From: Solirubrobacter phytolaccae
GTDB lineage: Bacteria > Actinomycetota > Thermoleophilia > Solirubrobacterales > Solirubrobacteraceae
NCBI RefSeq assembly: GCF_027587195.1
Contig: NZ_JAPDDP010000077.1
Span: forward strand, 1 to 36,226
Direction of reading: 5' to 3'
Length of the DNA stretch: 36,226 nucleotides
Shown piece by piece: positions 1,332-23,358 of this stretch. How positions within the stretch are numbered: position 1 is the first letter of the stretch; the number at the start of each line of letters is the position of its first letter. Both the position numbers and the translations under genes were made by a program. Under the pieces are notes generated by a model that saw only the letters and a program-made list of their open reading frames with translations, had not been told where the DNA came from and did no database searches.

Positions 1332-1355
1332 TGAGAGCACCTCCTGCTCAAGTGC

Positions 1356-1386
1356 AACCTACCGCTTTGGATGTTCTTCGTGTCAA
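1356..1386 (-). promoter_or_regulatory. Probable promoter of the subtilase gene
   Basis: On the minus strand a perfect TTGACA (1386-1381) is followed after 19 nt by TAGGTT (1361-1356), and the SD AGGAGG lies just downstream. The spacer is 2 nt longer than optimal, so strength is uncertain. The opposite-strand promoter of the binding-protein gene starts within 5 nt, so the two RNA polymerase footprints would overlap. Confidence 0.5.
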
Positions 1387-1390
1387 CCGG

Positions 1391-1396
1391 TATGGT
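1391..1396 (+). promoter_or_regulatory. Putative -10 box (TATGGT) for a leaderless start at 1403
   Basis: TATGGT ends 6 nt before the ATG at 1403 and no Shine-Dalgarno sequence precedes that ATG. Transcription would begin at or beside the start codon. Only a weak -35 (TTGGAT, 1367-1372, 18-nt spacer) is seen. The same arrangement recurs at several other genes in the window. Confidence 0.4.
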
Positions 1397-1402
1397 CGGC
1401 TC

Positions 1403-2311
1403 ATGCGGTGGCTCGCGGTTGGCGTCGCGCTCGTGTTCTGGCTCGTTTCTGCGCCTGCGCAGGCACAGGAGGTGCGGCTCGCGGCACCGTCGGACTGCCT
1501 CGTGAATCCGGCCTGTGGACAGGGGCTCGAGTCCGCATACGGACTCGACGTGCAGTCCGCGTTCGTGCCGCTCACGGTCGCCGACGCGGGCATCTCCGCG
1601 CTCGACGACGGGCTCGCCGAGGTGGCGATCGCGTTCTCCTCCAACCCGCAGGTCTCGCGGCCCGACATCGTCACGCTTCGCGACGACCGCTCGATGATCT
1701 ACCCCGACTACGTCGTGCCCGCCGTGCGGCGCGGGCTGCTGCGCGGCTACGGCAAGCGGGCGAAGGAGATCCGGCGCCGCCTGAACGACGCGTCGGCGGC
1801 GCTCACGACGCTCGCGCTGCGGGGCCTCAACCAGGCCGTGATCGACGGCCGGATGCCCGAGGCGGTCGGCGGGGAGTTCGTCGACGCGAACGGCCTCGGC
1901 GGCGACGCGGCGCGCAAGCCCGGCAAGCGGATCGTGATCGGCTACATGAGCTTCGACGAGAACGAGACGCTCGCCCACCTGTACGCCGAGGCGCTCCGGG
2001 CCGGCGGGTTCCGCGTCGTCGTGCGCGACATCCGCGGGCTGCGTCCCGAGGCCGTGCGCAAGCTCCGCCGCGACCAGATCGACCTCTACCCGGCCTACGA
2101 CGGCTCGCTCCTGCGCTACCTCGTCGGCACCTCGCCCGAGCGCCTGAAGGCGGGCCTGAAACGCACGCTCGCGCGGATCGACGTGGAGCCGATGCGCCGT
2201 TCCCGCGCGCAGGACAGCAACGTCTTCGTCACCAAGACCGAGACGGCGAGCCGGCTGGGCCTCGCGCGCATCTCCGACCTCGCGCGCTTCTGGCAACCTG
2301 CCGGTCCGTGA
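1403..2311 (+). CDS. Secreted glycine betaine/choline-type solute-binding protein (OpuAC-like), lobes in swapped order
   Basis: 302 aa with signal peptide 1-21 (cut after APAQA) and no lipobox cysteine, so it is probably released rather than anchored. Residues 26-170 match the segment that normally ends OpuAC/OsmF binding proteins: the paired-cysteine PSDC-x5-C..GL motif (C32, C38), a LRDDRSMIYPDY stretch, and LN.. LTT...LN. Residues 177-297 match the segment that normally starts them: IVIGYMSFDENETLAHLYAE, then IDLYPAYDGS (from D227) and a final ISDLARFW. The halves are thus in reversed order compared with the usual family, consistent with a circular permutation. No permease or ATPase gene is nearby, so the partner is unknown. 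Start is ATG 1403, directly before the signal peptide; an in-frame extension upstream overlaps the divergent subtilase and is unlikely. The next gene overlaps by GTGA. Confidence 0.82.
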   Translation: MRWLAVGVALVFWLVSAPAQAQEVRLAAPSDCLVNPACGQGLESAYGLDVQSAFVPLTVADAGISALDDGLAEVAIAFSSNPQVSRPDIVTLRDDRSMIYPDYVVPAVRRGLLRGYGKRAKEIRRRLNDASAALTTLALRGLNQAVIDGRMPEAVGGEFVDANGLGGDAARKPGKRIVIGYMSFDENETLAHLYAEALRAGGFRVVVRDIRGLRPEAVRKLRRDQIDLYPAYDGSLLRYLVGTSPERLKAGLKRTLARIDVEPMRRSRAQDSNVFVTKTETASRLGLARISDLARFWQPAGP

Positions 2312-2676
2312 GCGCCGAGCTCGACCGCGTACGCACGCTCTGCATGGCCCTCCCGGAGGTGACGGAGCGGCTCAGCCACGGCTCGCCCACGTGGTTCGTG
2401 CGCGGCAAGAAGACGTTCGTCATGTTCCTGAACGACCACCACGGCGACGGCCGGCTCGCGCTCTGGTGCGCGGCGCCCGAGGGGATGCAGCAGGCGCTCG
2501 TCGAGGGCGAGCCCGACCACTACTTCCGCCCGCCCTACGTCGGCCATCGCGGCTGGATCGGCGTGCACCTGAACACCGGGCTGGACTGGAACGAGATCGC
2601 GGGCGCGATCGAGGACGCCTACGCCGAGATCGCGCCTACGTCGCTGGTCGAGCGCGCTGCTCGAAGAGCTTCGTGA
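2308..2676 (+). CDS. MmcQ/YjbR-family protein
   Basis: 122 aa. The N-terminal ALPEVTERLSHGSPTWFVRG, the central LALWCAAPEGMQ and the PPYVGHRGWIGVHL..GLDW.E segment are the usual marks of the small MmcQ/YjbR family (CyaY-like fold), often called DNA-binding though the biochemical role is not established. The GTG start overlaps the stop of the binding-protein gene in a GTGA, implying translational coupling; a shared function with that gene is not obvious. The last 41 nt overlap the 3' end of the convergent phosphoesterase gene. Confidence 0.8.
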   Translation: MSAELDRVRTLCMALPEVTERLSHGSPTWFVRGKKTFVMFLNDHHGDGRLALWCAAPEGMQQALVEGEPDHYFRPPYVGHRGWIGVHLNTGLDWNEIAGAIEDAYAEIAPTSLVERAARRAS

Positions 2677-3358
2677 TCTCGAGCGCGGGGACCGGTGCAA
2701 CGAGGGCCGCGTCGATCGACATGACGTCGGGCCAGATCGCCTTCATGCGCTCGCCCGTCGCGGCGGCGTCGTAGGGCGTGGCGCGCAGCTCGGGCACGCC
2801 GTCGGCGACCCACAGCCAGCGAGCGGCGCCGTCGCCCTCGTAGGGGAGGCCGACGCTGCCCGCGTTGAGGAAGCGGACGCCGCCGACCGTGCGGTCGTGC
2901 TGCTGGTGCGTGTGGCCGGCGACGACGATCGACGCGGTGACGCCGCTCAGCGCCTCGGCGTAGCGCTCCTCGGGGCTGATGCGCGTGAGGATCTCGGCGT
3001 CGTCGCGCGGGGTCGCGTGGCAGTAGAGGACGCCGTCGATCTCGGTGGTGAGCGGCAGCTCGCCGAGCGGACGGACGAGCGCGGCGCCCAGCTCGCCGGC
3101 GTTGCGCTTGGCGGTGACGGCGGCCAGGTCGTCGGCGGCGGGCTCGGGACCGTCGAGCGCCTCGGCGGTCTCGCGCTCGCCGTTCCCGCGTATCCAGCGG
3201 GTGGGGAGCTCGGCGAGCCGGTCGAGCGTGGCGCGCGCGAACGGGCCGGGCAGCGCGTCGCCGCCGACCAGCACCAGGTCCGGGGTGGGCGCGGCGGCGA
3301 GCACGGCCTCCAGCGCATCGACGTTGCCGTGGATGTCGTACAGCGCGAGGACGTTCAC
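2636..3358 (-). CDS. Calcineurin-like metallophosphoesterase (YfcE/MPP type)
   Basis: 240 aa, no signal peptide, cytoplasmic. The metal-binding blocks appear in order: YDIHGN (residues 8-13), GGD, GNGERE, a CHATP block and GHTHQQHDR. Length and layout match small bacterial phosphodiesterases of the YfcE/MJ0936 type; the substrate cannot be told. GTG 3358 is chosen because the beta strand VNVLALYDIHGN begins there and a TACGAT box lies 7 nt upstream; there is no SD. It is divergent from the small secreted protein at 3425, and its 3' end overlaps the convergent YjbR-like gene by 41 nt. Confidence 0.88.
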   Translation of the reverse strand: MNVLALYDIHGNVDALEAVLAAAPTPDLVLVGGDALPGPFARATLDRLAELPTRWIRGNGERETAEALDGPEPAADDLAAVTAKRNAGELGAALVRPLGELPLTTEIDGVLYCHATPRDDAEILTRISPEERYAEALSGVTASIVVAGHTHQQHDRTVGGVRFLNAGSVGLPYEGDGAARWLWVADGVPELRATPYDAAATGERMKAIWPDVMSIDAALVAPVPALEITKLFEQRARPAT

Positions 3359-3365
3359 GACGCGG

Positions 3366-3394
3366 ATCGTAGCGCAACCCAACGGTTGCGAGAA
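3366..3394 (-). promoter_or_regulatory. Promoter of the phosphoesterase gene with operator-like palindrome
   Basis: On the minus strand TTCTCG (3394-3389) and TACGAT (3371-3366) are 17 nt apart, and TACGAT ends 7 nt before the GTG at 3358. The spacer is almost filled by a perfect inverted repeat, CGCAACC-CAAC-GGTTGCG (3373-3390), where a repressor would block both directions. The -35 is weak; the palindrome is exact. Confidence 0.45.
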
Positions 3395-3424
3395 CCGCTT
3401 GCGTCCGGTGGGAGTATTGGTGGC

Positions 3425-3814
3425 GTGCGGATCGTGCTCGTGATCCTCGTCGCACTGCTCGTCGCCGCTCCGGTGGCGAGCGCGAAGGAGGACGTGCGCG
3501 CGCACCTGGAGAGCACGCTGCCGAAGGCGGCCAAGGCCGGTACGACGATCACCGTCAAGTGGCGGCTCTACACGGCGGACGGCAAGCCGTTCGGCGCCGG
3601 CGAGCTGTTCGTGCGCCTCCGCGGACAGGGTGCGGTCACCCGCGCCGACGGCACCGGTCGCGACGGCCGCTACAGCGCCCGCGTGAAGGTGCCGCGCGGC
3701 GGGATTCGCGGCATCCGCTTCGGCCTCATGGGCTACCGCACCTACCCGGACGGGAGGAGCGAGGTCGCCCCGGTCTACTTCCCGCTGGACAACGACCCGT
3801 ACGAAAGTCGCTGA
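3425..3814 (+). CDS. Small secreted protein of unknown function
   Basis: 129 aa. Residues 1-20 (VRIVLVILVALLVAAPVASA) form a clear signal peptide, so it is exported. The rest alternates short beta strands with Gly/Arg turns (ITVKWRLYTADGKPFGAGELFVRL, then YSARVKVPRGGIRGIRFGL), compatible with a single Ig-like/beta-sandwich domain. No catalytic motif is seen and I do not recognise the family. GTG 3425 is the only start that gives a proper signal peptide; GGAG lies 10 nt upstream. The stop codon overlaps the -35 box of the next gene's promoter. Confidence 0.75.
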   Translation: MRIVLVILVALLVAAPVASAKEDVRAHLESTLPKAAKAGTTITVKWRLYTADGKPFGAGELFVRLRGQGAVTRADGTGRDGRYSARVKVPRGGIRGIRFGLMGYRTYPDGRSEVAPVYFPLDNDPYESR

Positions 3815-3839
3815 CAACCGCTTCACACGCGGTTACGAT
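3811..3839 (+). promoter_or_regulatory. Promoter of the PP2C phosphatase gene (leaderless)
   Basis: CTGACA (3811-3816), a 17-nt spacer and TACGAT (3834-3839) form the best sigma-70-type promoter in the window. The -10 ends 6 nt before the ATG at 3846 and no SD is present, so the transcript should begin at the start codon. Confidence 0.65.
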
Positions 3840-3845
3840 GCCGCC

Positions 3846-4622
3846 ATGCCGGCCTTGGCGCTCGAATGCGCCGCCCGTAACGACATCGGGCGACGGGCGA
3901 ACAACGAAGACGCGGTGTTCACCAGCTCACGCCTGGCGGCGGTCGCGGACGGCGTCGGTGGCGCCGCGGCCGGTGAGGTCGCCAGCCAACGGGTCGTGGA
4001 GTCGCTCGCGCTACTGGACAAGAGCCGCCTGGAGATCCCGCTCGACGCCGCGCTGGAGAACGCGATCGCGTTCGGCAACGAGTCGATCGGCTTCATCGCC
4101 GGCGCCCGCCCGCAGATGGAGGGCATGAGCACGACCCTCACCGCGGTCGCGCTGTCCAACGACGGCACCTACGTCGTCGCCAACATCGGCGACTCCCGCA
4201 CCTACCTCCTGCGCAGCGGCGAGCTCACCCAGCTCTCCCGCGACGACAGCCTCGTCCAGGACCTCATCGACGCCGGCCACCTCACCCCCGAGCAGGCCCG
4301 CCGCCACCCCCACCGCAACGTCGTCATGCACGCGCTGGACGGAGACCCCGAGCGCCGCCCGAGCACGCAGCTGCTCCCCGCGCTGTTCGGCGACCGCCTG
4401 CTCCTCTGCTCGGACGGCCTGTCAGACGTCGTCGACTTCGACACTCTGCGTGAGCTCTTGCTGCGGCACGCGGACCGCGGCGAGTGCGCGGACCGCCTGA
4501 TCGCGTTGGCGCTCGAGTCGGGTGCGAGGGACAACATCTCCGCCATCGTCTGCGACGTCGTGATCCGCGAGGACCTGGCCACGGCGTGGCAGGACCCTCT
4601 AACGGCTGATCACACCCACTAG
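3846..4622 (+). CDS. PP2C-family Ser/Thr protein phosphatase
   Basis: 258 aa, soluble, one complete PP2C domain with no extra domain. Conserved blocks in order: RRANNEDAV (residues 18-26), VADGVGGAAAGEVAS with the metal Asp, MSTTLTAVAL, VANIGDSRTYLLRSGEL, the SRDDSLVQDL and HPHRNVV region, LLCSDGLSDVVD with a further metal Asp, and ARDNISAIV near the C-terminus. All metal-ligand aspartates are present, so it should be an active Mn/Mg-dependent phosphatase like PrpC/PstP, reversing Hanks-type kinase phosphorylation. No kinase gene is in the window. Start ATG 3846 is fixed by the promoter and the first motif. Confidence 0.93.
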   Translation: MPALALECAARNDIGRRANNEDAVFTSSRLAAVADGVGGAAAGEVASQRVVESLALLDKSRLEIPLDAALENAIAFGNESIGFIAGARPQMEGMSTTLTAVALSNDGTYVVANIGDSRTYLLRSGELTQLSRDDSLVQDLIDAGHLTPEQARRHPHRNVVMHALDGDPERRPSTQLLPALFGDRLLLCSDGLSDVVDFDTLRELLLRHADRGECADRLIALALESGARDNISAIVCDVVIREDLATAWQDPLTADHTH

Positions 4623-4662
4623 CGGCGTGATGCGGGCAGGTGAGGAGGGTTCCCCTCACTGA

Positions 4663-4682
4663 GTGAACGCTCAGGCGTTCAC
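4663..4682. terminator. Hairpin downstream of the PP2C gene
   Basis: Perfect 8-bp stem GTGAACGC / GCGTTCAC around loop TCAG, 41 nt after the PP2C stop. No T-run follows. A weaker hairpin (GTGAG...CTCAC, 4640-4659) lies directly before it. Likely part of the 3' end of the PP2C transcript. Confidence 0.45.
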
Positions 4683-4728
4683 CTCGACTCGATCACGAGC
4701 GACCAGCCGCGCCCGTGCCGTCAGGGTG

Positions 4729-4769
4729 ATCCGTCAGTTGACCCCCCTCAGGGGCGTCAAGTGACGGAT
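4729..4769. terminator. Long hairpin between convergent PP2C and malQ genes
   Basis: The arms ATCCGTCA-G-TTGAC (4729-4742) and GTCAA-G-TGACGGAT (4756-4769) pair with a single G/G mismatch, and the inner C-run and G-run continue the stem up to a TCA loop. Being symmetric, it can work for both convergent transcripts. There is no T-tract, so it may instead be an RNA 3'-end stabiliser. Confidence 0.5.
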
Positions 4770-4843
4770 GACGTCGCAGGACGATGTTCGTTTCGCTTTC
4801 GGCCCGAGCGAATCGCCCGACGGGGAACGCACGGCGTTGACGT

Positions 4844-6064
4844 TCACGCGATTCGTCCCGCCGCCTCCGTCGCCGCCCGCAGCCGTTCCGCCAACTCCAA
4901 CGACGGCACAGCGTCCAGCCGCCAGCCCCAGCCGCCCGCCGTGCCCGGCTGGTTCATGCGCCCCTCGTGCCCAAGGCCCAGCACGTCCTGCAACTGCACC
5001 ATCGCCAGCATCGCGGGTGAAGCGAAGGCCAGGCGGATCATCGCCCAGTGCCCTTCGTCCTCGACGATGCCGTACTCGTCCAGCGCCTCCTGGACCAGCG
5101 CCAGCGGCTCGCGGCCGAGGCCGTCGTACCAGCCGCGGATGGTGTCGTTGTCGTGGGTGCCGGTGTAGACGACCTGGTTCTCCTCGTGGTTGGCCGGCAC
5201 GTGCTGTGTGTTGCGCTCCGACGGCGTGAAGCCGAACTGCAGCACCGCCATCCCGGGCAGCCCGAGGGACTCGCGCATGCGCTTGACGGGCGGGGTGATC
5301 ACGCCGAGGTCCTCGGCGATCACCGGCAGCGAGCCCAGCGCTTCGCGGGCGGCGAGCAGCGGCGCGGCGCCCGGGCCGCGCTTCCAGGTGCCGGTCGACG
5401 CGACCGGGGAGTCCTCCGGCACGGCCCAGTAGGCGGTGAAGGCCCGGAAGTGGTCGATCCGGACCAGGTCGAAGAGCTCGAAGATCCGGCGCAGGCGGGC
5501 GATCCACCACGCGTAGCCGCGGCGTTGCAGCGCAGGCCAGTCGTAGACGGGATTGCCCCACAGCTGGCCGTCCTCGGTGAAGGCGTCCGGCGGCACGCCG
5601 GCGACGAAGCCCGGCTTGAAGATCTCCGGGTGGGCGCGCTCGTCGGCGGATTCGGGCGCGACGTAGATCGGGACGTCGCCGATCAGCTTCACGCCACGGT
5701 CAGCGGCGTAACCGCGAAGGGCGGCCCATTCACGGTCGAAGCGCACCTGATCGTCCAGGGCCGCCTCGCCCGCGAAGGCGATCCAGTCCTCGATCCAGTC
5801 GGACGCCTTCTCCCGGAAGGCCGACCGCTCCGCGTCGCTGACCGGAGCGCCCGGCTCCGCCAACAACGTGGGGGAAGCGGCGAACGCCGAGGCCGACTTG
5901 TACGGCGAGCCGTGCTTGTCGGGAGGTGAGAGCGGCAGCATCTGCCACCAGGTCTGGCCCGCCGCGGCGAGCCAGTCGACCCAGGCGTAGGCCTCCGGAC
6001 CAAGGCGTCCGGATGGCAATGAGGTCGGGTGCAGCTGCACCCCGGATGTACGAGGAAGGTTCAT
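4844..6064 (-). CDS. malQ: 4-alpha-glucanotransferase (amylomaltase), unusually short
   Basis: 406 aa. GH77 enzyme that moves alpha-1,4-glucan segments between maltooligosaccharides with release of glucose. N-terminal GVQLHPTSLPSGRLGPEAY and WWQMLPLSP, then GVPPDAFTEDGQLWGNPVYDW, and the catalytic residues Asp204 (RIDHF), Glu251 (AEDLG) and Asp305 (THDND). Their spacing (47 and 54) is nearly that of Thermus amylomaltase (293/340/395 as I recall), yet the first comes about 89 residues earlier, so a large part of the region after the first barrel strands is missing. ATG 6064 starts just before the conserved segment. No SD is seen. It is divergent from glgE with only 32 nt between the starts, so the two are probably co-controlled. 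Confidence 0.92.
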   Translation of the reverse strand: MNLPRTSGVQLHPTSLPSGRLGPEAYAWVDWLAAAGQTWWQMLPLSPPDKHGSPYKSASAFAASPTLLAEPGAPVSDAERSAFREKASDWIEDWIAFAGEAALDDQVRFDREWAALRGYAADRGVKLIGDVPIYVAPESADERAHPEIFKPGFVAGVPPDAFTEDGQLWGNPVYDWPALQRRGYAWWIARLRRIFELFDLVRIDHFRAFTAYWAVPEDSPVASTGTWKRGPGAAPLLAAREALGSLPVIAEDLGVITPPVKRMRESLGLPGMAVLQFGFTPSERNTQHVPANHEENQVVYTGTHDNDTIRGWYDGLGREPLALVQEALDEYGIVEDEGHWAMIRLAFASPAMLAMVQLQDVLGLGHEGRMNQPGTAGGWGWRLDAVPSLELAERLRAATEAAGRIA

Positions 6065-6096: not shown

Positions 6097-8040
6097 ATGC
6101 CCGCACCGAAGCGCAGTGAACGCCCGCGCCGGATCAGGATCGCAAAGCCGGCGCCGGTCCTCGACAATGGTCGGTACGCCGTCAAGCGCACCGTTGGCGA
6201 CACCGTCGCCGTTTCCGCCGACATATTCCGCGACGGCCACGAGAAGCTGAAGGCCGTCGTCAAGTACAAGGCGCCGGGCGGACGCCGCTGGCTGGAGGCC
6301 GAGCTGCACGCCGTGGACGCGCACGTCAGCGGCGTGCGCTGGGCGGGTGAGTTCACGGTCGAGACGCCGGGAACCTGGCAGTGGACGGTTGAAGCGTGGA
6401 CCGACCGCTGGGCGACCTGGCACGACGAGCTGCGCCGCAAGGTCGCCGCCGACCTCGACGAGGACCTCACCTCCGAGCTCTCCGAGGGCGTCATCTTCCT
6501 CAAGCGCGCCCTCGAGCGTGCCAAGGACCAGGACGCCAAGGGCAGCATCGAGTGGGCGATCGGCGTGCTCGAGTCCGACGCCGACATCAACCACCAGTTC
6601 GACGTCGCGCTGGGTCCGGAGCTGTTCCAAGCGATGGAGCTTTCCCAAGAGCGCGAGGGGGCATGCGCCCTCGAGAAGCCCGTCACGGTCGAGGTGGACC
6701 GCGTCCGCGCGCGCTTCTCCGCCTGGTACGAGCTGTTCCCGCGCTCGTTCGGCGGCTTCAAGAACGTGGAGGCGATCGTCCCGGACGTCGCCGACCTCGG
6801 GTTCGACGTCCTGTACCTGCTGCCGTTCCACCCGATCGGCGTCAACAAGCGCAAGGGCCGCAACAACTCGCTCACCGCGGGCCCGGACGACCCGGGAAGC
6901 CCATACGCCATCGGCGGCAAGGAGGGCGGCCACTTCGCCGTCCACCCCGAGCTCGGCACCGAGCAGGACGTCCGTGATCTGTGCGCGACCGCCCACAAGC
7001 ACGGGATGGACGTGGCGCTGGACATCGCGCTCAACGCCTCCGCCGACCACCCGTGGCTCACGGAGCACCCCGAGTGGTTCCAGCAGCGCCCCGACGGCAC
7101 GCTCAAGTACGCCGAGAACCCGCCCAAGCGCTACCAGGACATCTACAACTTCAACTGGGACACGGACGACTGGCAGGGCCTCTGGAACGCCTGGCGCGAC
7201 GTCTTCCTGCACTGGGTGGACTGCGGGATCAAGTGCTACCGCGTCGACAACCCCCACACCAAGCCGTTCGCGTTCTGGGAGTGGATCATCAAGGAGGTCC
7301 ACAAGGTCGACCGCGACGTGGTCTTCCTGTCCGAGGCGTTCACGAGAAGAGCCGTCATGCGCGAGCTGGCCAAGCTCGGCTTCACGCAGTCCTACACGTA
7401 CTTCACGTGGAAGAACTCGCGCCACGAGATGGTCGAGTACTTCAACGAGCTCGCCTGGGGTGAGGAGAAGGAGTACTTCCGGCCGAACTTCTTCCCGGTC
7501 ACGCCGGACATCCTGCACGCCTATCTGCAGCACGGCGGCCCGCCCGCGTTCGTCACGCGCCTCGTGCTCGCCGGCACGCTGTCACCGTCCTACGGCATCT
7601 ACAGCGGCTACGAGCACTTCGAGAACGTCCCGGTCAAGGAAGGCTCGGAGGAGTACCTGAACTCCGAGAAGTACGAGATCAAGGACCGCAAGCTCGACGG
7701 CCCGCTGCTGCCGATGATGCGGCGGCTGAACACGATCCGCCACGAGAACCCGGCGCTGCAGCAGCTGAGCAACGTCTTCTGGCTTGACGGCCAGAACGAC
7801 CAGCTGTTCGCCTTCGCGAAGCAGGAGCCCGGGAACACGATCATCACGGTCACCAACCTCGATCCCCACCACGGGCAGTCGGGCCTGGTCACGATCCCCG
7901 CGATGCTCGGCCTACCGCCGGTGTTCGTGGTCGAGGACCAGTTCACGGGCAACCACTACGACTGGCGGATCGGCCAGAACTACGTGGAGCTGGACCCGCA
8001 CGTCGTCGGCAAGCAGTTCCACGTGTTCAAGGTGCTGTGA
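6097..8040 (+). CDS. glgE: Alpha-1,4-glucan:maltose-1-phosphate maltosyltransferase
   Basis: 647 aa, GH13 subfamily 3. Transfers maltose from maltose-1-phosphate to the non-reducing end of alpha-1,4-glucan. Residues about 10-190 form the GlgE N-terminal beta and helical-bundle domains ([20 protein letters not shown], later [12 protein letters not shown]). The barrel carries [21 protein letters not shown], then nucleophile Asp384 in [17 protein letters not shown] and acid/base Glu413 in FLSEAFTR; the spacing of 29 equals that of Streptomyces GlgE (394/423). The RVDNPHTKP motif separates GlgE from amylases. ATG 6097 is chosen over an upstream extension that would overlap malQ antisense. Its stop overlaps the treS start (GTGA). 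Gene order glgE-treS-mak-glgB is the classic GlgE operon. Confidence 0.96.
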
Positions 8041-9718
8041 GCGTGTCGGCAGGTACGCGCAACGACCCGGGGCAGTGGTTCGAGGCCCAGCCGCTGTGGT
8101 TCAAGACGGCCGTGTTCTACGAGATCCACACGCGCGCCTTCTTCGACGCCAACGGCGACGGCTCCGGCGACTTCCGCGGCCTGACCGAGAAGCTCGACTA
8201 CCTGCAGTGGCTGGGTGTGGATTGCATCTGGCTGCTGCCGTTCTTCAAGTCGCCGCTGCGTGACGGCGGCTACGACATCAGCGACTTCCTCGAGATCCAG
8301 CCCGACTACGGGACGGTCGAGGACGTCCGGGCCTTCATCGAGGCCGCCCATCAGCGTGGGATGCGCGTCATCGCCGACCTGGTGATGAACCACACGTCCT
8401 CCGACCACGCGTGGTTCCGGGAGTCGCGATCGAGCCCGGACAACCCGAAGCGCGATTGGTACGTGTGGTCCGACGACCCCACGCGGTACAGCGAGGCGCG
8501 GATCATCTTCACGGACACCGAGTCCTCGAACTGGACCTGGGACGACGAGGCCGGCGCCTACTTCTGGCACCGCTTCTTCTCCCACCAGCCCGACCTGAAC
8601 TTCGACAACCCCGAGGTCCAGGACGCGATGCTGGAGGTCCTGCGCTTCTGGCTGGACCTGGGCATGGACGGCTTCCGCCTGGACGCCGTCCCGTACCTGT
8701 ACGAGCGCGACGGCACCAACGGCGAGAACCTCCCCGAGACGCACGCCTACCTCAAGCGGGTCCGGGCGGAGATCGACAAGCACTACCCCGACCGCGTGCT
8801 GCTCGCCGAGGCGAACCAGTGGCCGGCGGACGTCGTCGAGTACTTCGGCGACGGCGACGAGTGCCACATGGCCTTCCACTTCCCCGTGATGCCGCGCATG
8901 TTCATGGCGGTGCGGCGCGAGGAGGCCAACCCGATCTACGAGATCCTGCGCCAGACCCCCGACATCCCGGACAACTGCCAGTGGGGCCTGTTCCTGCGCA
9001 ACCACGACGAGCTCACGCTCGAGATGGTCACGGACGAAGAGCGCGACTACATGTACGCGGAGTACGCCAAGGACCCGCGGATGAAGATCAACGTCGGCAT
9101 CCGCCGTCGGCTCGCGCCGCTGATGGAGGGCGGCCGCGACGAGATCGAGCTGCTGCACGCGATCCTCTTCAGCCTCCCGGGCGCGCCGGTCCTGTACTAC
9201 GGCGACGAGATCATGATGGGCGACAACGTCTACCTCGGCGACCGGGACGGGGTGCGCACGCCGATGCAGTGGAGCGGCGACCGCAACGGCGGCTTCAGCC
9301 GCGCGGACTTCGCCCAGCTCTACGCGCCGCCGCTGATGGACCCGCTGTACGGCTTCCAGGCGGTCAACGTCGAGGCCCAGATGCGCACGCCGTACAGCCT
9401 CCTGCGCTGGCTGCGGCGGTTCGTCGCGCTGCGCAAGGAGCACCCCGTGTTCGGGCTCGGCGCGTACGACCCGCTGACGCCGTCGAACCCGAAGATCTTC
9501 GCCCACGTCCGCACGTACGAGGAGGACGTGATGTTGTGCGTCCACAATCTCGCGCGCTCCGCCCAGGCGGTGGAGCTCGACCTCTCGCCCTACGAAGGAC
9601 GGTCACCCGTGGAGATCTTCGGCCGCTCGCGCTTCCCGAGCATCGGCGAGCTCCCCTACCTGCTGACGCTCGCACCGCGCGGTTTCTATTGGTTCCAACT
9701 CGTGAAGGATGAGCCGGA

Positions 9719-9722
<4 letters not shown>
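8037..9722 (+). CDS. treS: Trehalose synthase (maltose alpha-D-glucosyltransferase)
   Basis: 561 aa, GH13 subfamily 16. Interconverts trehalose and maltose, feeding maltose to the kinase encoded next. [25 protein letters not shown] opens the barrel; nucleophile Asp216 in [21 protein letters not shown], acid/base Glu258 in LLAEANQWP and Asp324 in [11 protein letters not shown] are all present. [15 protein letters not shown] and [11 protein letters not shown] are typical of TreS. The GTG start overlaps the glgE stop, and the stop overlaps the maltokinase start (ATGA). No maltokinase domain is fused at the C-terminus; the kinase is a separate gene here. Confidence 0.96.
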
Positions 9723-11065
<1,343 letters not shown>

Positions 11066-11069
11066 ACAG

Positions 11070-13247
11070 ATGAGTGAAGCCGACCAGCTGGTATCCCGCC
11101 AGCACGCGAACCCCCATGGATACCTCGGTGCCCACCCCGCGAACGGCAAGGGGGTGGTGATCCGCACGTTCCGCCCGGCGGCGGCGAAGGTCGAGGTCGT
11201 CTCGGCCGACGGCTCGCACTCCGCGCTCGAGCAGGTGCACCCCGGCGGCGTGTTCGAGGGCTTCATCAAGGGCGCGGACCTGCCGCTGGCCTACACGCTC
11301 GAGGTCGACTACGGCGACTCCGGCACGGTCACGATCGAGGACCCGTACCGCTTCCTGCCGACGATCGGCGAGCTCGACGTCCACCTGCTCGGCGAAGGCC
11401 GGCACGAGGAGCTGTGGGAGCGCCTGGGCGCGCACGTGACCGAGTCCGACGGCGTCACCGGCACCGCGTTCGCGGTCTGGGCGCCGTCCGCCAAGGCCGT
11501 GTCCGTCGTCGGCGACTTCAACTACTGGGACGGCCGCATCCACCCGATGCGCTCGCTCGGCTCCTCCGGCGTGTGGGAGCTGTTCCTGCCCGGCGTGGGC
11601 GACGGGGCCCGGTACAAGTTCGAGATCCTCACCCAGGAGGGCGAGATCCGGCTGAAGGCCGACCCGGTCGCGTTCGCCACCGAGGTGCCGCCGAAGACCG
11701 CCTCGGTCGTGCACGACCCCAAGCACGTCTGGAACGACAAGAAGTGGGTGGAGGCGCGCCGCAAGTCCAGCGCGCTGGAAGGCCCGATGTCGATCTACGA
11801 GGTGCACCTGGGCTCGTGGCGGCTGAACCCGCTCGAGGACAACCGGTCGCTGAACTACCTCGAGCTGGCCGACGAGCTGTCGGCGTACGCGAAGGACATG
11901 GGCTTCACCCACATCGAGCTGCTGCCGGTGATGGCCCACCCGTTCACGGGCTCGTGGGGCTACCAGGTGACGGGCTACTTCGCGCCCACGCCGAAGTTCG
12001 GCACGCCCGACGACTTCCGCGAGTTCGTCGACCGCGTGCACCAGAACGGGATCGGCGTGATCCTCGACTGGGTCCCGGCGCACTTCCCGCGCGACGACTT
12101 CGCGCTCGCCCGCTTCGACGGCACGGCGCTCTACGAGCACGACGACCCGCGCCGCGGCGCGCACCCCGACTGGGGCACGCTCGTCTTCAACTACGGGCGC
12201 CACGAGGTCCGCAACTTCCTCGTCTCGAACGCGCTGTTCTGGCTCGAGGAGTTCCACGCCGACGGCATCCGCGTGGACGCCGTGGCGTCGATGCTCTACC
12301 TCGACTACTCGCGCGAAGACGGCCAGTGGGTGCCGAACCAGTACGGCGGCAACGAGGACCTGGACGCGGTCGCGTTCCTGAAGGAGTTCAACGAGGTCGT
12401 CCACTCGCGCGAGCCGGGGGTCATCTCCGCCGCCGAGGAGTCGACGGCGTGGCCGGGCGTCTCACGCCCCACGTACCTGGGCGGGCTCGGATTCGGCTTC
12501 AAGTGGAACATGGGCTGGATGCACGACACGCTGGCGTACTTCCAGAACGACCCGATCTATCGCCGGTTCCACCACCACGAGCTGACCTTCAGCCTCGTCT
12601 ACGCGTTCACGGAGAACTTCATCCTGCCCCTGTCGCACGACGAGGTCGTGCACGGCAAGGGCTCGCTGCTGACGAAGATGCCGGGCGACCGCTGGCAGAA
12701 GCTCGCGAACCTGCGCTCCCTGTACGCCTACATGTGGGCGCACCCCGGCAAGAAGCTCCTGTTCATGGGCCAGGAGTTCGCGCAGGAGCAGGAGTGGAAC
12801 GAGTCGCGTTCGCTGGACTGGCACCTGCTCGAGAACCCGGAGCACTCCGGCATCCAGTCGCTCATCCGGGACCTGAACAAGGCCTACAAGGACGAGCCGG
12901 CGCTGTGGGAGATGGACTTCGACGGCAACGGCTTCTGGTGGACGGAGGCCAACGCGGCCGACGACAACGTGGTCGCGTTCGCCCGTCGGACCAAGGACTC
13001 CGAGCGCGTGGCGCTGTTCGTCGGCAACTTCTCGCCGGTCGTGCGGGAGAACTACCGGATCGGGCTGCCCCGCTCCGGGCGCTGGCGCGAGGTCGTCAAC
13101 ACCGACGCGAGCAACTACGGCGGCTCGGGTGTCGGGAACATGGGCGGCGTCGACGCCGAGGGCGAGGGCTGGCACGGCCAGCCGTTCAGCGCGGCGGTCA
13201 CTTTGCCGCCGCTCGGGGCGATCTGGCTGGTCCCCGAAGAATCCTGA
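11070..13247 (+). CDS. glgB: 1,4-alpha-glucan branching enzyme
   Basis: 725 aa, GH13 subfamily 9, the length of E. coli GlgB. Makes alpha-1,6 branches in the glucan extended by GlgE. N-terminal NPHGYLGAHP and a CBM48 segment (FAVWAPSAKAVSVVGDFNYWDG), then the barrel with nucleophile Asp403 (DGIRVDAVASMLYLDYSR), acid/base Glu456 (AAEESTAWPGVS) and Asp524 (LSHDEVVHGKGSLL); spacings of 53 and 68 equal those of the E. coli enzyme. ATG 11070 has GGAG 7 nt upstream; a longer form from 11031 would overlap mak and lacks support. Last gene of the glgE operon: the next gene starts 46 nt later and is unrelated. Confidence 0.96.
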   Translation: MSEADQLVSRQHANPHGYLGAHPANGKGVVIRTFRPAAAKVEVVSADGSHSALEQVHPGGVFEGFIKGADLPLAYTLEVDYGDSGTVTIEDPYRFLPTIGELDVHLLGEGRHEELWERLGAHVTESDGVTGTAFAVWAPSAKAVSVVGDFNYWDGRIHPMRSLGSSGVWELFLPGVGDGARYKFEILTQEGEIRLKADPVAFATEVPPKTASVVHDPKHVWNDKKWVEARRKSSALEGPMSIYEVHLGSWRLNPLEDNRSLNYLELADELSAYAKDMGFTHIELLPVMAHPFTGSWGYQVTGYFAPTPKFGTPDDFREFVDRVHQNGIGVILDWVPAHFPRDDFALARFDGTALYEHDDPRRGAHPDWGTLVFNYGRHEVRNFLVSNALFWLEEFHADGIRVDAVASMLYLDYSREDGQWVPNQYGGNEDLDAVAFLKEFNEVVHSREPGVISAAEESTAWPGVSRPTYLGGLGFGFKWNMGWMHDTLAYFQNDPIYRRFHHHELTFSLVYAFTENFILPLSHDEVVHGKGSLLTKMPGDRWQKLANLRSLYAYMWAHPGKKLLFMGQEFAQEQEWNESRSLDWHLLENPEHSGIQSLIRDLNKAYKDEPALWEMDFDGNGFWWTEANAADDNVVAFARRTKDSERVALFVGNFSPVVRENYRIGLPRSGRWREVVNTDASNYGGSGVGNMGGVDAEGEGWHGQPFSAAVTLPPLGAIWLVPEES

Positions 13248-15551: not shown

Positions 15552-16481
15552 ATGCCGAAGACGCCGGTGATCATCGACTGCGACCCTGGCCACGACGACG
15601 CGATGGCGCTGCTGCTCGCGCTCGCGAGCCCTGAGCTGGAAGTCGTGGCCGTCACGACCGTGGCCGGGAACCAGACGCTGGACAAGGTCACGGCCAACGC
15701 CATCCGGGTGCTGGACGTCGCGAACGCGACCGGCATCCCGGTCGCCGCGGGCGCCGCGCGCCCGCTCGTGCACGACACGGCCGGTCTCGCCGCCGACGTG
15801 CACGGCGAGACCGGCCTGGACGGCCCGGACCTGCCGCCGCCGTCCCGCGAGCCCGAGCCGCTGCACGCCGTCGAGCTGATGGCGCGCGAGCTGCGCAAGC
15901 GCCCGCTCACGCTGATCCCGGTCGGCCCGCTCACCAACATCGCGCTGCTGATCGCGATGCATCCCGAGCTGGTCGAGAACATCGAGGACATCGTCGTGAT
16001 GGGCGGCGCGATCGGCCTGGGCAACGTCACGCCGAGCGCCGAGTTCAACCTCTGGTGCGACCCCGAGGCGGCCCTGCGGGTCTTCGAGTCCGACGCCGAC
16101 GTGACCATGATCGGCCTCGACGTCACCCACCAGGCGATGCTCAGCGCCGCGCGCGCCGAGGCGCTGCGCGAGACGGGGCGGGCGGGTGCGGTCGTCGCCG
16201 ACCTGCACGCCTTCTACCGACGGTTCCATTTGGAGGTCTATGGGCATGACGACACCCCAGTGCACGATGCCCTCGCCGTCGCCCACGTGATCGACCCGAA
16301 GATCCTCAAGACCACGCCGCTGAGCGTCGAGATCGACGTCACGCAAGGCCCGTGCCGTGGCCGCACGGTGGTCGACCAGCTGCGCCGCACGGACCGTCCC
16401 GCGAACGCGCACGTCGCCGTCGACGTGGACGCCGACCGCTTCATCGACCTGCTCACCTCGCGGATCGGCTCGCTGGCTTGA
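15552..16481 (+). CDS. Inosine-uridine-type nucleoside hydrolase
   Basis: 309 aa, complete. Cleaves the N-glycosidic bond of ribonucleosides. The Ca-binding signature DCDPGHDDA is at residues 9-17; GNQTLDKVTANA, PVGPLTNIALL, VMGGAIGLGNVTPSAEFNLWCDPEAA and the late DTPVHDALAVA with the last Ca-ligand Asp are all present. The subfamily (IunH/RihA/RihB-like) cannot be fixed. It heads the treZ-glgX-treY run: its TGA overlaps the TTG start of treZ, so a nucleoside-salvage enzyme is translationally coupled to trehalose genes. Upstream, 40 nt separate it from the divergent FN3 gene; AATGAT lies 5 nt before the ATG. Confidence 0.94.
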   Translation: MPKTPVIIDCDPGHDDAMALLLALASPELEVVAVTTVAGNQTLDKVTANAIRVLDVANATGIPVAAGAARPLVHDTAGLAADVHGETGLDGPDLPPPSREPEPLHAVELMARELRKRPLTLIPVGPLTNIALLIAMHPELVENIEDIVVMGGAIGLGNVTPSAEFNLWCDPEAALRVFESDADVTMIGLDVTHQAMLSAARAEALRETGRAGAVVADLHAFYRRFHLEVYGHDDTPVHDALAVAHVIDPKILKTTPLSVEIDVTQGPCRGRTVVDQLRRTDRPANAHVAVDVDADRFIDLLTSRIGSLA

Positions 16482-18204
16482 GCGCCGACTACCCCTTCCA
16501 GCGCCCCCTCGGCGCGTTCCCGGAGCGCCACGGCCGGACGCGGTTCCGCGTCTGGGCGCCGGATCCGACCGAGGTGCTCCTGCGCACCGGCGGCGCCGAC
16601 CATGCGCTCGACCTCGTCGGCTTCGGCGTCTACGAGGCCGAGCTGGACGTCCCCGCCGGCGCCGACTATCAGTACGTGATCGACGGCGAGGCGCTGCCCG
16701 ACCCGTGCTCGCGCTGGCAGCCCGAGGGCCTGCGCGGCCCGTCCCGCGTGTTCGACCCGCACGCCTTCGCCTGGACCGACCACGCCTTCCGCACCCCCGG
16801 CCTGCACGACGCGGTCATCTACGAGCTGCACGTCGGCACGTTCTCGCCCGCAGGCACGTTCGACGGCGCGATCCCGCACCTGCAGGAGCTCGCCGACCTC
16901 GGCGTGACCGTGCTCGAGCTGATGCCCGTGGCCGAGTTCCCCGGCGCGCGCGGCTGGAGCTACGACGGCGTCTACCTGAGCGCCGCCCAGTCGTCCTACG
17001 GCGGCCCGGAGGCACTGCAGCGGCTCGTCGACGCCGCGCACGCGCTCGGCCTCGCCGTCGTGCTCGACGTGGTCTACAACCACATCGGCGCCTCCGGCAA
17101 CAAGGCCGTGCTGGCGTACGGCCCGTACTTCACCCACAAGCACGAGACGCCCTGGGGCGCCTCCCTGAACGTGGACGGCGAGCACTCCGACGCCGTCCGC
17201 GAGTGGGTGTGCCAGAGCGCGGAGCAGTGGATCCGCGACTTCCACCTCGACGGGCTGCGGCTGGACGCGATCCACGCGATCTCCGACTCGAGCCCGGAGC
17301 ACCTGGTGGCCGAGGTCTCCCGCCGCGTGCACGCGATCCACCCGGGCGCGCTCGTGATCGCCGAGTCGGGCATGAACGACCCGAAGGTCATGCGCGCGCG
17401 TGAGCTGGGCGGCTGGGGCTGCGACGCCGCCTGGGCCGACGACTTCCACCACGCGCTGCGCGTCCTGCTCACGGGCGAGACCCAGGGCTGGTACGAGGAG
17501 TTCGACGAGCTGGCGCTGCTGGCGAAGGCCTTCCGCCGCCCGCACGTCCACGACGGCAACTACTCGACGTTCCGCAAGCGCCGCTTCGGGGCGCCGGCGT
17601 TCGACGTGCCGCCGGAGCGTTTCATCGTCTTCTCCGCCGACCACGACCAGGTCGGCAACCGCGCGTTCGGGGACCGGCTCCCCGTGCAGGCGCGGGCACT
17701 CGCGGCGTTCTGCACGCTTTTGTCACCCTTCACGCCCATGCTGTTCCAGGGCGAGGAATACGGCGAGCGGGCGCCGTTCCAGTTCTTCACGGACCACATC
17801 GACCCGGAGATCGCGGACGCCACCCGCGAAGGGCGCCGCCGTGAGTTCGCCTCCTTCGCCGCGTTCGCCGGTGAAGAGGTGCCCGACCCGCAGGACGTCG
17901 CCACGTTCGAGCGCTCCAAGCTCACGCGCGAAGGTGAGCCGGAGGGTCTGCGCGAGTTGCATCGCGCGCTGCTGCGCGCCCGCCGCGCGCTGCCCGCCGG
18001 CGACGTCGACGAAGTGACCTTCGACGAGCGCGCCGGCTGGCTCGCCGTCAAGCGCGGTGACCACACGCTGCTGGCGAACTTCGCCCGCACGGCCGTGCAC
18101 GTACCCCGCGACCGCACTGAGGAGATCGTCCTGAGCACCCACGAGCCGACGCTCGAACCCGGATTCGTCGTCCTTGCACCCCTGTCCGGAGCGCTGGTGC
18201 GCTG

Positions 18205-18205
<1 letters not shown>
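16478..18205 (+). CDS. treZ: Maltooligosyltrehalose trehalohydrolase
   Basis: 575 aa, GH13 subfamily 10. Releases trehalose from maltooligosyl-trehalose made by TreY. An N-terminal CBM48-like domain (RTRFRVWAPDPTEVLLRTGGADH) precedes the barrel: DAVIYELHVGTFSPAGTFDGAI, VLDVVYNHIGASGN, nucleophile Asp263 (GLRLDAIHAI), acid/base Glu296 (VIAESGMNDPKV), Asp390 (SADHDQVGNRAFGDR). The only sensible start is TTG 16478, overlapping the nucleoside hydrolase stop (TTGA); reading on upstream in frame leads into that gene with no ATG or GTG close by. The final TGATG overlaps glgX by 1 nt. Confidence 0.95.
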
Positions 18206-20321
<2,116 letters not shown>

Positions 20322-20325
<4 letters not shown>

Positions 20326-22271
20326 GCGACCTGCGCGCGACCTACCGGCTCCAGCTCGGCGGCGACTTCGGCTTCGCCGCCGCGCGCGAGCTCGTTCCGT
20401 ACCTGGCCGACCTCGGCGTCTCGCACCTGTACCTGCCGCCGTCGTTCCAGGCGCGGGAGGGCTCGACGCACGGCTATGACGTCGTCGACCCCGGCTCGAT
20501 CTCCAACGAGCTGGGCGGTGAGGACGAGTTCCTGGAGCTGGTCGCGGTCGCGCGCGAGGCGGGGCTCGGGATCGTGCTCGACATCGTCCCGAACCACATG
20601 GCGACGGATGAGAAGAACCGCTACTGGAGCGACCCGGAGCTGCGGCGCAAGTTCTTCGACCTCGACGAGAAGACGGGCCGCCACCGGCGCTTCTTCGACA
20701 TCGACCACCTCGCGGGCGTCCGCCAGGAGGACCCCGAGGTGTTCGCGGAGACGCACAAGCTCGCGCTGCGGCTCGTGAACGAGGGGATCGTCGACGGGCT
20801 CCGGATCGACCATCCGGACGGGCTCGCGGACCCCGCGGGCTACCTGCAGCGGCTGCGCGACGGCGGCGCCGAGCACGTGTGGGTGGAGAAGATCCTCGAC
20901 CCGGGCGAGCCGCTGCGCGACTGGGCGATTGACGGCACCGTCGGCTACGAGTTCCTCAACGACGTCGCCGCGCTGTTCGTCGACCCCGCGGGCGAGGCGC
21001 CGCTGACCGACCTGTGGGTCGAGGTCTCCGGCGACGACCGGCGCTTCGGCGAGCTCGCCTTCGAGGCCAAGCTCGAGCAGGCGCGGACGGCGTTCGCGCC
21101 CGAGGTCGAGCGGCTGCTGCGTGAGGCGCCCGAGCGCGTCGCGGGCCTGGAGCGCGCGCTGGCGTCGTTCCCCGTCTACCGCACCTACGTGGAGCCGTGG
21201 TCGGGGAAGGTGGCCGACGAGGACCGCCACGCCGTCGCCGAGGCCGGCCTGCCCGCCTCGCTGGCCTCCAAGCTGCTGCTGGAGGTCCCGGGCTGGGAGG
21301 CGTTCATCACGCGCTTCCAGCAGACGACGCCGCCTGTGATGGCCAAGGGCGTCGAGGACACGGCGTTCTACCGCTACGCGCGGCTGCTGGCGTTGAACGA
21401 CGTCGGCGGGGACCCGGGCCGCTTCAGCGTGTCCGTGCGTGACTTCCACCGCGGCAACGCCGAGCGGGCGGAGCGCTTCCCGAACAACCTGCTGGTCACC
21501 CAGACGCACGACACCAAGCGCTCCGGCGACGTGCGGGCGCGGATCGGCACGCTCGCGTCGATGCCCGAGGAGTACGCCGCGCACGTGCGCACGTGGCTCT
21601 CCGTCTGCCGCTCGCTGACCAGCGGCGGCGCGCCGACGCCGGTCGAGCAGCTCTTCATCTTCCAGACACTGCTGGGCGCGTGGCCGATCTCCGAGGACCG
21701 CCTGCACGGCTACCTCGAAAAGGCGATGCGCGAGGCCAAGCAGCACACGACCTGGGTCGACGTCAACGAGGAGCACGAGGGCGCCGTGCAGTCGTTCGCC
21801 CGGGCGCTGCTCACGCACCGCGACTTCCTGCGCACGTTCCTGCCCTTCCAGGAGCAGGTGGCCGCGGCCGGCGAGCAGTCGGCGCTGGGCCAGCTCGCGC
21901 TCAAGCTCACGGTGCCGGGCGTGCCCGACATCTACCAGGGCGACGAGTTGCTGTGCCTGTCGCTGGTGGACCCCGACAACCGCCGCGCCGTCGACTGGGA
22001 CGAGCGCCGCGCGGCGCTCGCGTCCGCCGCGCCGCCGGCGAAGCTGCAGGTGATCCGCACGCTGCTGGCGCTGCGCAAGCGGCTGCCCGAGGCGTTCGCG
22101 GGCGCGTACGCGGCGGTCGAGGCGGGCGAGGACGTCGTCGCCTTCACGCGCGGCGAGGACCAGGTCTTCGTGGCCGTCCGCCTGCGGGGCCAAGGCGAGC
22201 TGCCGCGCCCCGAAGGCGAGTGGGCCGCCGAGCTGGAGCTCGACGGCCTCCTGGTGCTCAGCCGGCGGTGA
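20322..22271 (+). CDS. treY: Maltooligosyltrehalose synthase, compact form
   Basis: 649 aa, GH13 subfamily 26. Isomerises the reducing-end alpha-1,4 bond of maltooligosaccharides to the alpha,alpha-1,1 bond. ATYRLQLGGDFGFAAA and YLPPSFQAREGSTHGYDVVDP open the protein; nucleophile Asp163 (DGLRIDHPDGLADP), acid/base Glu189 (VWVEKIL) and Asp397 (TQTHDTKRSGDVRARI) are present, then VPDIYQGDELLCLSLVDPDNRR near the end. It is about 70-120 residues shorter than most TreY (720-775), with the loss mainly between the acid/base Glu and the third catalytic Asp. ATGA overlap with glgX. Its 3' end overlaps the convergent binding-protein gene by 14 nt. Confidence 0.94.
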
Positions 22272-23358
22272 TCGCGCCCTCGTAGGCCAACTCGCGGTCG
22301 CGCGTGACGGCGTAGAGCCCGTACGCGCGCAGCGTGGTCTCGCCGTTGGCGTCGAAGCCGTACGTGCCGAGGACGCTCTGGCGGTTCTGGACGGTGGGCA
22401 GCCAGGCGAGTAGGCCCGCACGGGTGCCGCCGGACGCGACGAAGCCGTCCAAGATCAGCTTCATCGCCTCGTAGCCGTAGGTGTAGTACGGGTCGCGGTT
22501 GCCGAACTGGGCCGGCGTCGGGAGCGTGGCCACGGTCACGAACGTGCGGCGGGCGACGGATCGGGGCAGGCGGCCGACGAAGCCGGTCTCGGCCACGCCG
22601 TCGCTGCCGTAGAGCTGCATCCCGCGCAGCGCGCTGGAGCGGAACAGGCGCACGGCGCCGTTGACCGTGATGCCGGTGTAGGCCATGCAGTCGGCCTTGG
22701 CGCGGCGGACCGCGCTCGGCGCACCGCGGCTGATCCGGCGGTTCGCCACGACCGGAAGCCCGAAGCGCGCGGCGGTCGCGACGGCGTCGGCGTTCATGCC
22801 CTTGCCGTAGACCTCGCCGTCGTGGACGAACGCGAGCGCCTTGCAGCCGCGGTCGCGCATCGCGGTCACGAGCGCGGCGGCCTGCACGTGGTCGTTCGGC
22901 ACGATCCGGAAGAACGTGCGCACGCCGGTCGGGTAGTAGCGGCCGGGCTCGCCGGACGTCGTTCCGGGACCGCCGGTCGAGAGGCCGTTGTACGTGCTCG
23001 AGGGGCTGATCGTCGGGATTCCGACGCGGTTGAGGATCGGCACGGACACCTTGGCGGCGCCCGAGTTGAACTCGCCGATGTAGGCCACGGTGGAGGCGTC
23101 CTTCGCCGCCCTGCGGGCGTTCGCGCGCGTCCGTCCCACCGTCCAGGAGCCGGCGCGCGGCGTGGCGCTGTTGAGCGTGACGAGCCGCACGGGGTTGCCG
23201 GCCTCCTTCAGCGCGCGGCGGGCGCCGTCGTTGACCGCCTTGGTCTGCACGCGCGAGGCGCCGCTCAAGGGCAGGCTCGAGTACACCGTCGGCTGCTGCG
23301 CGGTGGCGGTGGCCGGGAATGCCCCGGCAATGAGGAACGCCGCAATGATCCGTTTCAT
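22258..23358 (-). CDS. Branched-chain amino acid-type ABC solute-binding protein (LivK-like)
   Basis: 366 aa. Signal peptide MKRIIAAFLIAGAFPATATA with cleavage before QQ; no lipobox cysteine. The body shows the type I periplasmic-binding fold of the Peripla_BP_6 family: VYSSLPLSGASRVQTKAVNDGARRAL, then VAYIGEFNSGAAKVSVPILNRVGIPTISPSST, FFRIVPNDHVQAAALV, ALAFVHDGEVYGKGM and YTYGYEAMKLILDGF. Ligand unknown. No Liv permease or ATPase gene is nearby, so it is an orphan binding protein or a receptor. The start is fixed by the signal peptide; it is divergent from the small gene at 23400. Confidence 0.88.
   Translation of the reverse strand: MKRIIAAFLIAGAFPATATAQQPTVYSSLPLSGASRVQTKAVNDGARRALKEAGNPVRLVTLNSATPRAGSWTVGRTRANARRAAKDASTVAYIGEFNSGAAKVSVPILNRVGIPTISPSSTYNGLSTGGPGTTSGEPGRYYPTGVRTFFRIVPNDHVQAAALVTAMRDRGCKALAFVHDGEVYGKGMNADAVATAARFGLPVVANRRISRGAPSAVRRAKADCMAYTGITVNGAVRLFRSSALRGMQLYGSDGVAETGFVGRLPRSVARRTFVTVATLPTPAQFGNRDPYYTYGYEAMKLILDGFVASGGTRAGLLAWLPTVQNRQSVLGTYGFDANGETTLRAYGLYAVTRDRELAYEGAITAG

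Follow-up and report, generated by a model that had tools for sequence, protein, structure and literature searches.

What does a secreted binding protein do when its two halves are encoded in the reverse of the usual order and no transporter is encoded beside it? This question was raised by the window examined here, a stretch of 36,226 nucleotides from Solirubrobacter phytolaccae (contig NZ_JAPDDP010000077.1), in which an open reading frame (ORF) at 1403-2311 of the plus strand, starting with ATG, encodes a 302-amino-acid relative of the OpuAC/OsmF/ProX/EgtUC (type II) solute-binding proteins (SBPs; PF04069). The explanation favoured here, with a probability of roughly 0.55, is that this window protein is a true circular permutant, that its lineage abandoned uptake, and that the protein now serves a secreted protease module together with a PstS-like partner.

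A binding protein with swapped halves

The start of the ORF agrees with its orthologues: in L006 and L007, no start codon other than the corresponding ATG lies between the preceding stop codon and the family match. Judged by eye, the product opens with a Sec-like signal peptide. The search with PF04069 of the S. phytolaccae genome gave two matches in this protein, both above the curated cut-off: the first half aligned with profile positions 137-256 (E = 1.3e-8) and the second half with positions 1-111 (E = 2.6e-12). The whole protein matched OpuAC in hmmscan at E = 7.9e-24, also in two stretches, and its whole-profile score (85.1 bits, cut-off 21.2) places it in the family, with no continuous PF04069 alignment in the ordinary order. 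The first segment begins slightly before its Pfam match, at about residue 21-25, and carries a pair of cysteines (C32 and C38) upstream of that match and within its reach.

The completeness of the halves was assessed with a mapping hidden Markov model (HMM) of 282 positions, built from 34 ordinary-order relatives from the window's own family and order only. Residues 21-165 corresponded to model positions 141-281, and residues 172-295 to positions 11-139, and therefore almost nothing is missing; the two halves meet at the cut, and the other end is bridged by a short linker. When the protein was rotated in silico, the two native mapping-HMM matches (76.0 and 57.5 bits) became one of 145.4 bits over positions 12-281, and the two Pfam stretches became one of 97.3 bits over positions 1-256 of 257. 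In a sequence search of the PDB, the rotated protein aligned with EgtUC over 10-272 (1.2e-13), and the native protein gave 9.6e-10, with a best stretch that covered one half. All 13 distinct permuted proteins of the family (identical proteins were merged before mapping) scored higher after rotation, 12 of them with a match over nearly the whole model; the exception, L043, still aligned in two pieces. Rotation restored a continuous full-length alignment without loss, and at the level of sequence the window protein is a natural circular permutant. A permutation with both halves complete had been proposed in the initial annotation, and it was borne out by the profiles, by the separate alignment of the halves and by the rotation.

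In the 13 permuted proteins of the family, the break was located at model position 139/140 or a few positions off (the C-terminal half starting at 140-146, the N-terminal half running to 139-147), between the ISDLA helix and the first strand of the second half. In the type II topology, each half gives the core of one lobe plus one strand of the other lobe, so the swapped chain would start at a point pseudo-symmetric to the normal start. On this topology the cut would lie inside lobe 2, and not near the hinge, where the new ends had been placed in the initial annotation. A search for similarity in sequence between the two halves, which would point to pseudo-symmetry, gave a weak result (a single 16-column stretch with a probability of 7.9%); the pseudo-symmetric placement draws on the general topology of the fold. 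The chain would thus begin with the second pseudo-symmetric half, continue through the linker to the N-terminal half, and is expected to close into the usual intact two-lobed fold, with its termini shifted from lobe 1 to lobe 2.

Missing signs of uptake

An uptake SBP of a Gram-positive bacterium is recognised by a lipobox and by adjoining ATPase and permease genes, and the window protein had neither. No cysteine was seen by eye at the end of its signal peptide, and no ATP-binding cassette (ABC) transporter query matched in the window or in the orthologue loci (L025-L030, L066 and L067). The protein is probably exported and not lipidated. The same absences had led to the earlier suggestion of a role other than uptake, which is supported by them and by the linkage and fusion to a subtilase described below. 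The Arg column of the pocket region may correspond to the residue that touches the ligand in A. fulgidus ProX. It held Asn in all nine window-type rows, against Arg in 33 of the 41 ordinary rows and in 12 of the 16 transporter-permuted ones. The window protein resembles the OpuAC/OsmF/ProX/EgtUC family in the match of both halves, and differs from it in their order, in the missing lipobox and transporter genes, and in the changed Arg.

Linkage to a subtilase and a PstS-like protein

Full-length or near full-length matches to the window protein were obtained in its own genome (G000), G001, G002, G004 (Solirubrobacter taibaiensis), G005 (S. soli, at two loci) and G006, and G003 contained an ordinary-order relative only. 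In a profile search of 146 genomes of the family, 43 had matches at 1e-25. Full-length permuted matches were present in 11 of the 146, at 14 places; eight of these genomes carried the window type and three carried transporter SBPs of another genus. For the other 32 genomes, the matches listed covered one profile half only. The swapped order is conserved in Solirubrobacter and relatives; a search for homologues with this order had been suggested in the initial annotation. No relative was found in viral contigs.

The initial annotation described a lone secreted protein, and in this it was mistaken: a subtilase (Peptidase_S8, here S8; E = 2.4e-52) is encoded divergently about 70 bp away, and in relatives the gene of a PstS-like protein follows that of the subtilase. 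The best PDB matches of the window subtilase by sequence were deseasin MCP-01 and thermitase, and its best NCBIfam model was that of the mycosins, with a score well below the cut-off of that model.

An S8 gene was beside or fused to the permuted gene in all eight window-type genomes and at eight of the nine loci. A divergent S8 gene adjoined the permuted gene in six genomes (G000, G001, G002, G004, G006 and G089), and in the other two the S8 and permuted domains were fused in one protein (719 amino acids in S. soli, 724 in G066). A PstS-like (PBP_like_2) gene followed S8 in G001, G002, G004 and G006 (the Pfam PBP_like_2 match was tested for G002), and also followed both fusions. In G089, a PBP_like_2 gene came after S8 and a second, frame-broken relative was on the other side. 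In S. phytolaccae itself, the PstS-like gene lies at one end of a different contig (C55), a position that an assembly break could explain, although no 20-mer was shared between the two contig ends. Gene calls around the loci were made with a simple codon-usage script, not with a standard gene finder.

The permuted protein and the S8 type also co-occurred across the genomes searched. The S8 type, at 443 bits or more, was present in exactly the eight window-type genomes and in none of the other 138; the next S8 in the ranking scored 284 bits. G003, of the same genus, had neither the permuted protein nor the S8 type nor the PstS-like protein at the thresholds used. For the PstS-like protein, the seven genomes with the highest scores all belonged to the window-type set.

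Further combinations of these domains were observed. At another S. soli locus (L163, 3505-5085), the C-terminus of a subtilase carried a fused, shortened PstS-like domain. Its PBP_like_2 match (E = 7.9e-4) was below the Pfam cut-off, and by eye the domain seems to keep only the first and last PBP parts. In G089 (L067), the product of 2212-4482 combined SpaA_4, a VWA match that was weak and below the Pfam cut-off, and permuted OpuAC. A single stop separates it from a second permuted OpuAC ORF in the same frame (4486-5403), with an unclear start; both adjoined the S8 and PBP_like_2 genes.

Permuted OpuAC proteins elsewhere

Of 396 phylum genomes sampled, 18 had matches at 1e-36: the genome of the window itself, 15 that encode permuted OpuAC proteins and two that encode ordinary ones. 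The cut was the same, or consistent with the same position, in 12 of the 15 permuted proteins; among the sampled proteins, L096 (G499) is cut by a contig end and was assigned by hand as permuted at 139/140, and L091 starts at a contig end. Other cut points were seen in three OpuAC lipoproteins, at about model position 172-180 in L092 and L095 (G785 and G778) and at about 203 in L097 (G626), and these still adjoined transporter genes. Transporter genes were present beside 13 of the 15 permuted proteins, and the other two loci ended at contig edges. The ATPase and both permeases were seen at 11 of the 15 loci and in all three g19 genomes (G024, G161 and G165). By a simple pattern, a lipobox was detected in 15 of the 18 transporter-type permuted proteins scanned (L113 was left out, and L108 starts at a contig end). 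Because of their transporter neighbours and lipoboxes, these permuted proteins probably work in uptake. The window branch departs from them, as it has neither.

In a class sample of 399 genomes, 12 had matches at 1e-40, and in eight of these the protein was permuted. In the remaining four (L076, L080, L081 and L082, from G419, G417, G321 and G344, respectively), an OpuBB-like permease was fused to two OpuAC copies in tandem. These had been considered as permuted proteins; they were rejected as ordinary-order duplicates (permease-[N-C]-[N-C]) and excluded from the permuted count. Tandem ordinary duplicates of this sort would be expected as intermediates if permutation proceeds by duplication.

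Number of permutation events

For phylogenetic analysis, all proteins were first put into ordinary order, and trees were computed for sets of 47, 70 and 75 rows (from the last, 14 ordinary rows were left out for speed). In the 70- and 75-row trees, the permuted rows cut at 139/140 required four changes of order, at least three of which were forced by well-supported branches. The separate permuted groups were the window type, g19, the f13/f53 group and, once more ordinary rows were included, L090. The g19 group was sister to the ordinary L099 with support of 100/99 in both trees, and L090 was nested among ordinary rows (98/98, 75-row tree). When each half was analysed alone, four or five changes of order were needed. 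Approximately unbiased (AU) tests rejected a single clade of all permuted rows, the natural prior group (p = 8e-5 with 70 rows, 2e-6 with 75 rows). The AU tests also rejected the window type with g19 (p = 1.4e-4), the window type with the f13 type and L090 (p = 0.002), g19 with the f13 type and permB (p = 0.0012), and L090 with the f13 type and permB (p = 1.9e-5); these groups were picked after the tree had been seen, and in the 70-row tests the f13-type group contained L090.

The 47-row tree had first been read as a single permutation event, a reading rejected by the larger trees and the AU tests. That all permuted proteins nevertheless descend from one event, with the recurrent origins an artefact, is considered improbable. 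It would fit with a shared cut, to within a few positions, in the 25 rows that carry this label, with the length of some branches, and with the one change of order in the 47-row tree, where the support was weak (77/49). The trees also disagree on which ordinary row is closest to the window type (sister to L098 at 98/95 in the 70-row tree, not in the 75-row tree), L090 stood beside the f13/permB rows until ordinary rows were added, the tree of the C-terminal half does not recover the f13 clade, and several joins are weak. Against one event are the AU tests of the single clade and the changes required in each half alone, although some of the apparent gains could be reversions from permuted to ordinary order, which would lower the number of gains.

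Relation to known permuted binding proteins

A naturally permuted binding protein is already known. The relevant papers among those listed in searches on circular permutation of such proteins are compared here. TpMglB-2 (Tp0684) of Treponema pallidum is a permuted glucose-binding protein whose cleft still binds its ligand, with a change of shape on binding, according to the accessible part of its description (PMC4990184). Like the window protein it is a natural circular permutant of a bilobed binding protein, but it has the type I fold and belongs to another family, the first strands of one lobe are permuted, and its gene is clustered with ABC transporter genes; in the same part of the paper, a protease partner is not mentioned. 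Closer to the window protein in function are the glycine betaine-binding proteins 2B4L, 1R9L and 1SW1, among which structural circular-permutation relations were reported with CPSARST, as also for molybdate-binding proteins and CysB (PMC2395249). There the fold superposes on itself after rotation; the set consists of solved structures, and the sections of the report seen describe neither lineages with swapped sequences nor a link to a protease. Permuted halves of the ribose-binding protein, which unlike the window protein are engineered and of type I, support, in the extracts available, an origin by duplication of a half that tolerates rearrangement (PMC9815098). A term search within the paper on the L. 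lactis OpuA binding domain (PMC2861598) gave no mention of permutation. Among the papers listed in searches on subtilisins or subtilases with binding proteins and on Solirubrobacter, none dealt with such a cassette; most subscription papers lay outside the search, so that absence from print is unproven.

The surprising parts of the present data are the recurrence of the swap and the protease cassette; natural permuted binding proteins were already known from TpMglB-2.

To our knowledge, most natural circular permutations are regarded as having arisen once, long ago. In the present data, one swap appears in several distinct groups within a single family and phylum, next to uptake genes, and tandem ordinary duplicates are found in the same class. 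This offers a natural experiment on the ways in which pseudo-symmetric folds allow permutation, and on the effect of moving the tether. The window branch in turn suggests that a secreted protease module has been built with binding proteins. As a more far-reaching and rather doubtful proposal, Actinobacteria, the phylum of the window, might have repeatedly permuted the same fold at its pseudo-symmetry point, and one permutant might have abandoned nutrient uptake and turned into a prodomain-like controller of a secreted subtilase that responds to a ligand; with a PstS-like protein as second sensor, this would make a three-part solute-gated protease.

Possible role of the window protein

In the explanation favoured here, the window protein would work with the divergently encoded secreted subtilase and the PstS-like orphan binding protein. 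Most probably, the two binding proteins would act as sensors of a solute or as docking sites for a substrate, and so regulate the protease or direct it to its targets, without feeding a transporter. This reading draws on the conserved linkage and on the fusions; contact between the components and control by a ligand are inferences. Several observations weigh against this explanation. Adjoining genes can be linked without physical contact of their products. Mycosins are not known to need a chaperone prodomain, and since the window subtilase is nearest to mycosins among the NCBIfam models, though well below the cut-off, the protease may not need the binding protein. The eight window-type genomes represent about seven strains of one family, because G001 (S. 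deserti) and G006 (Solirubrobacter sp.) are the same strain, CPCC 204708. The Asn at the pocket-region Arg column is also present in six of 41 ordinary rows. The PstS-like group is widespread (76 of 146 genomes at 1e-12), and the G089 copy, with 154 bits, scored under some unlinked copies; for these two reasons, the PstS-like link in G089 rests on adjacency. Finally, the second permuted copy of S. soli (contig C8) has no S8 or PBP neighbour.

The linkage to the protease might also have a more direct basis, in that the permuted domain replaces the I9 prodomain and folds the protease or keeps it inactive, acting in cis where the two are fused and in trans where they are separate, and might be released by a ligand. 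This is regarded as rather unlikely. It is favoured by the S. soli fusion, in which the alignment places the binding domain, followed by a short linker, just before the start common to the stand-alone mature S8 proteins (EEQWAVAP...), and by the lack of a Pfam I9 match in the six distinct S8 proteins scanned: the two fusions showed only OpuAC and S8 at E 0.01, and L030 had no I9 even at E 1. However, a mycosin-like S8 may fold alone, the S8 at the C1 locus of S. soli has no permuted domain in front, and this would be a new kind of prodomain, whose contact with the active site is invisible in sequence.

Two further explanations are judged quite improbable. The window protein could still be an uptake SBP that feeds a transporter encoded elsewhere, as its own genome has a complete OpuBA-BB-BB-SBP operon (contig C94) and permuted homologues in other genera adjoin ABC transporter genes; but that operon includes its own ordinary SBP, the linkage of the window type is to the protease, and a lipobox is missing in this Gram-positive lineage, whereas most of the permuted transporter-type SBPs scanned have one. 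Alternatively, the protein could be a relic without ligand binding, an adhesion or scaffold domain of secreted proteins. The changed pocket Arg and the G089 protein, in which permuted OpuAC is fused behind SpaA_4 and the weak VWA match, would agree with such a relic, but both halves together match the family over nearly its whole length, and the second Tyr of the YPxY motif is kept in all nine window-type rows. Service in a secreted protease module, with the PstS-like protein as partner, is preferred.

Other features of the window

The features of the locus are listed in Table 1.

Table 1. Coordinates of the permuted binding protein gene, its segments and the divergent subtilase gene in the window
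Feature	Position	Strand	Basis
Circularly permuted OpuAC-family binding protein, 302 amino acids, probably secreted, no lipobox	1403..2311	+	Profile matches
Signal peptide, residues 1-22	1403..1468	+	By eye; start agrees with orthologues
Normally closing OpuAC segment (PF04069 137-256), here first	1520..1885	+	Pfam match
Linker region, old C-terminus to old N-terminus	1886..1924	+	Gap between the two PF04069 matches
Normally opening OpuAC segment (PF04069 1-111), here last	1925..2290	+	Pfam match
Divergent subtilase (Peptidase_S8), Asp/His/Ser motifs by eye; truncated at the 3' end by the end of the contig, with an uncertain start codon	3..1331	-	
Intergenic region of about 70 bp separating the divergent genes; its exact length varies with the subtilase start, which is uncertain	1332..1402	.	

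The window also contains a trehalose/alpha-glucan cluster (6097-13247 and 16478-22271) encoding GlgE, TreS, maltokinase and GlgB, and TreZ, GlgX and TreY; the maltokinase match was below the cut-off of its model. A linkage of the permuted gene to these trehalose/glycogen genes was considered and dropped, because no such genes were seen by eye among those called in the roughly 20 kb around each of the S. soli and G066 loci. Two tandem genes at 25964-28432 and 28566-31103 matched M6-type (immune inhibitor A-like) metalloproteases and had similar N-termini, and a Peripla_BP_6 binding protein was encoded on the minus strand at 22258-23358.
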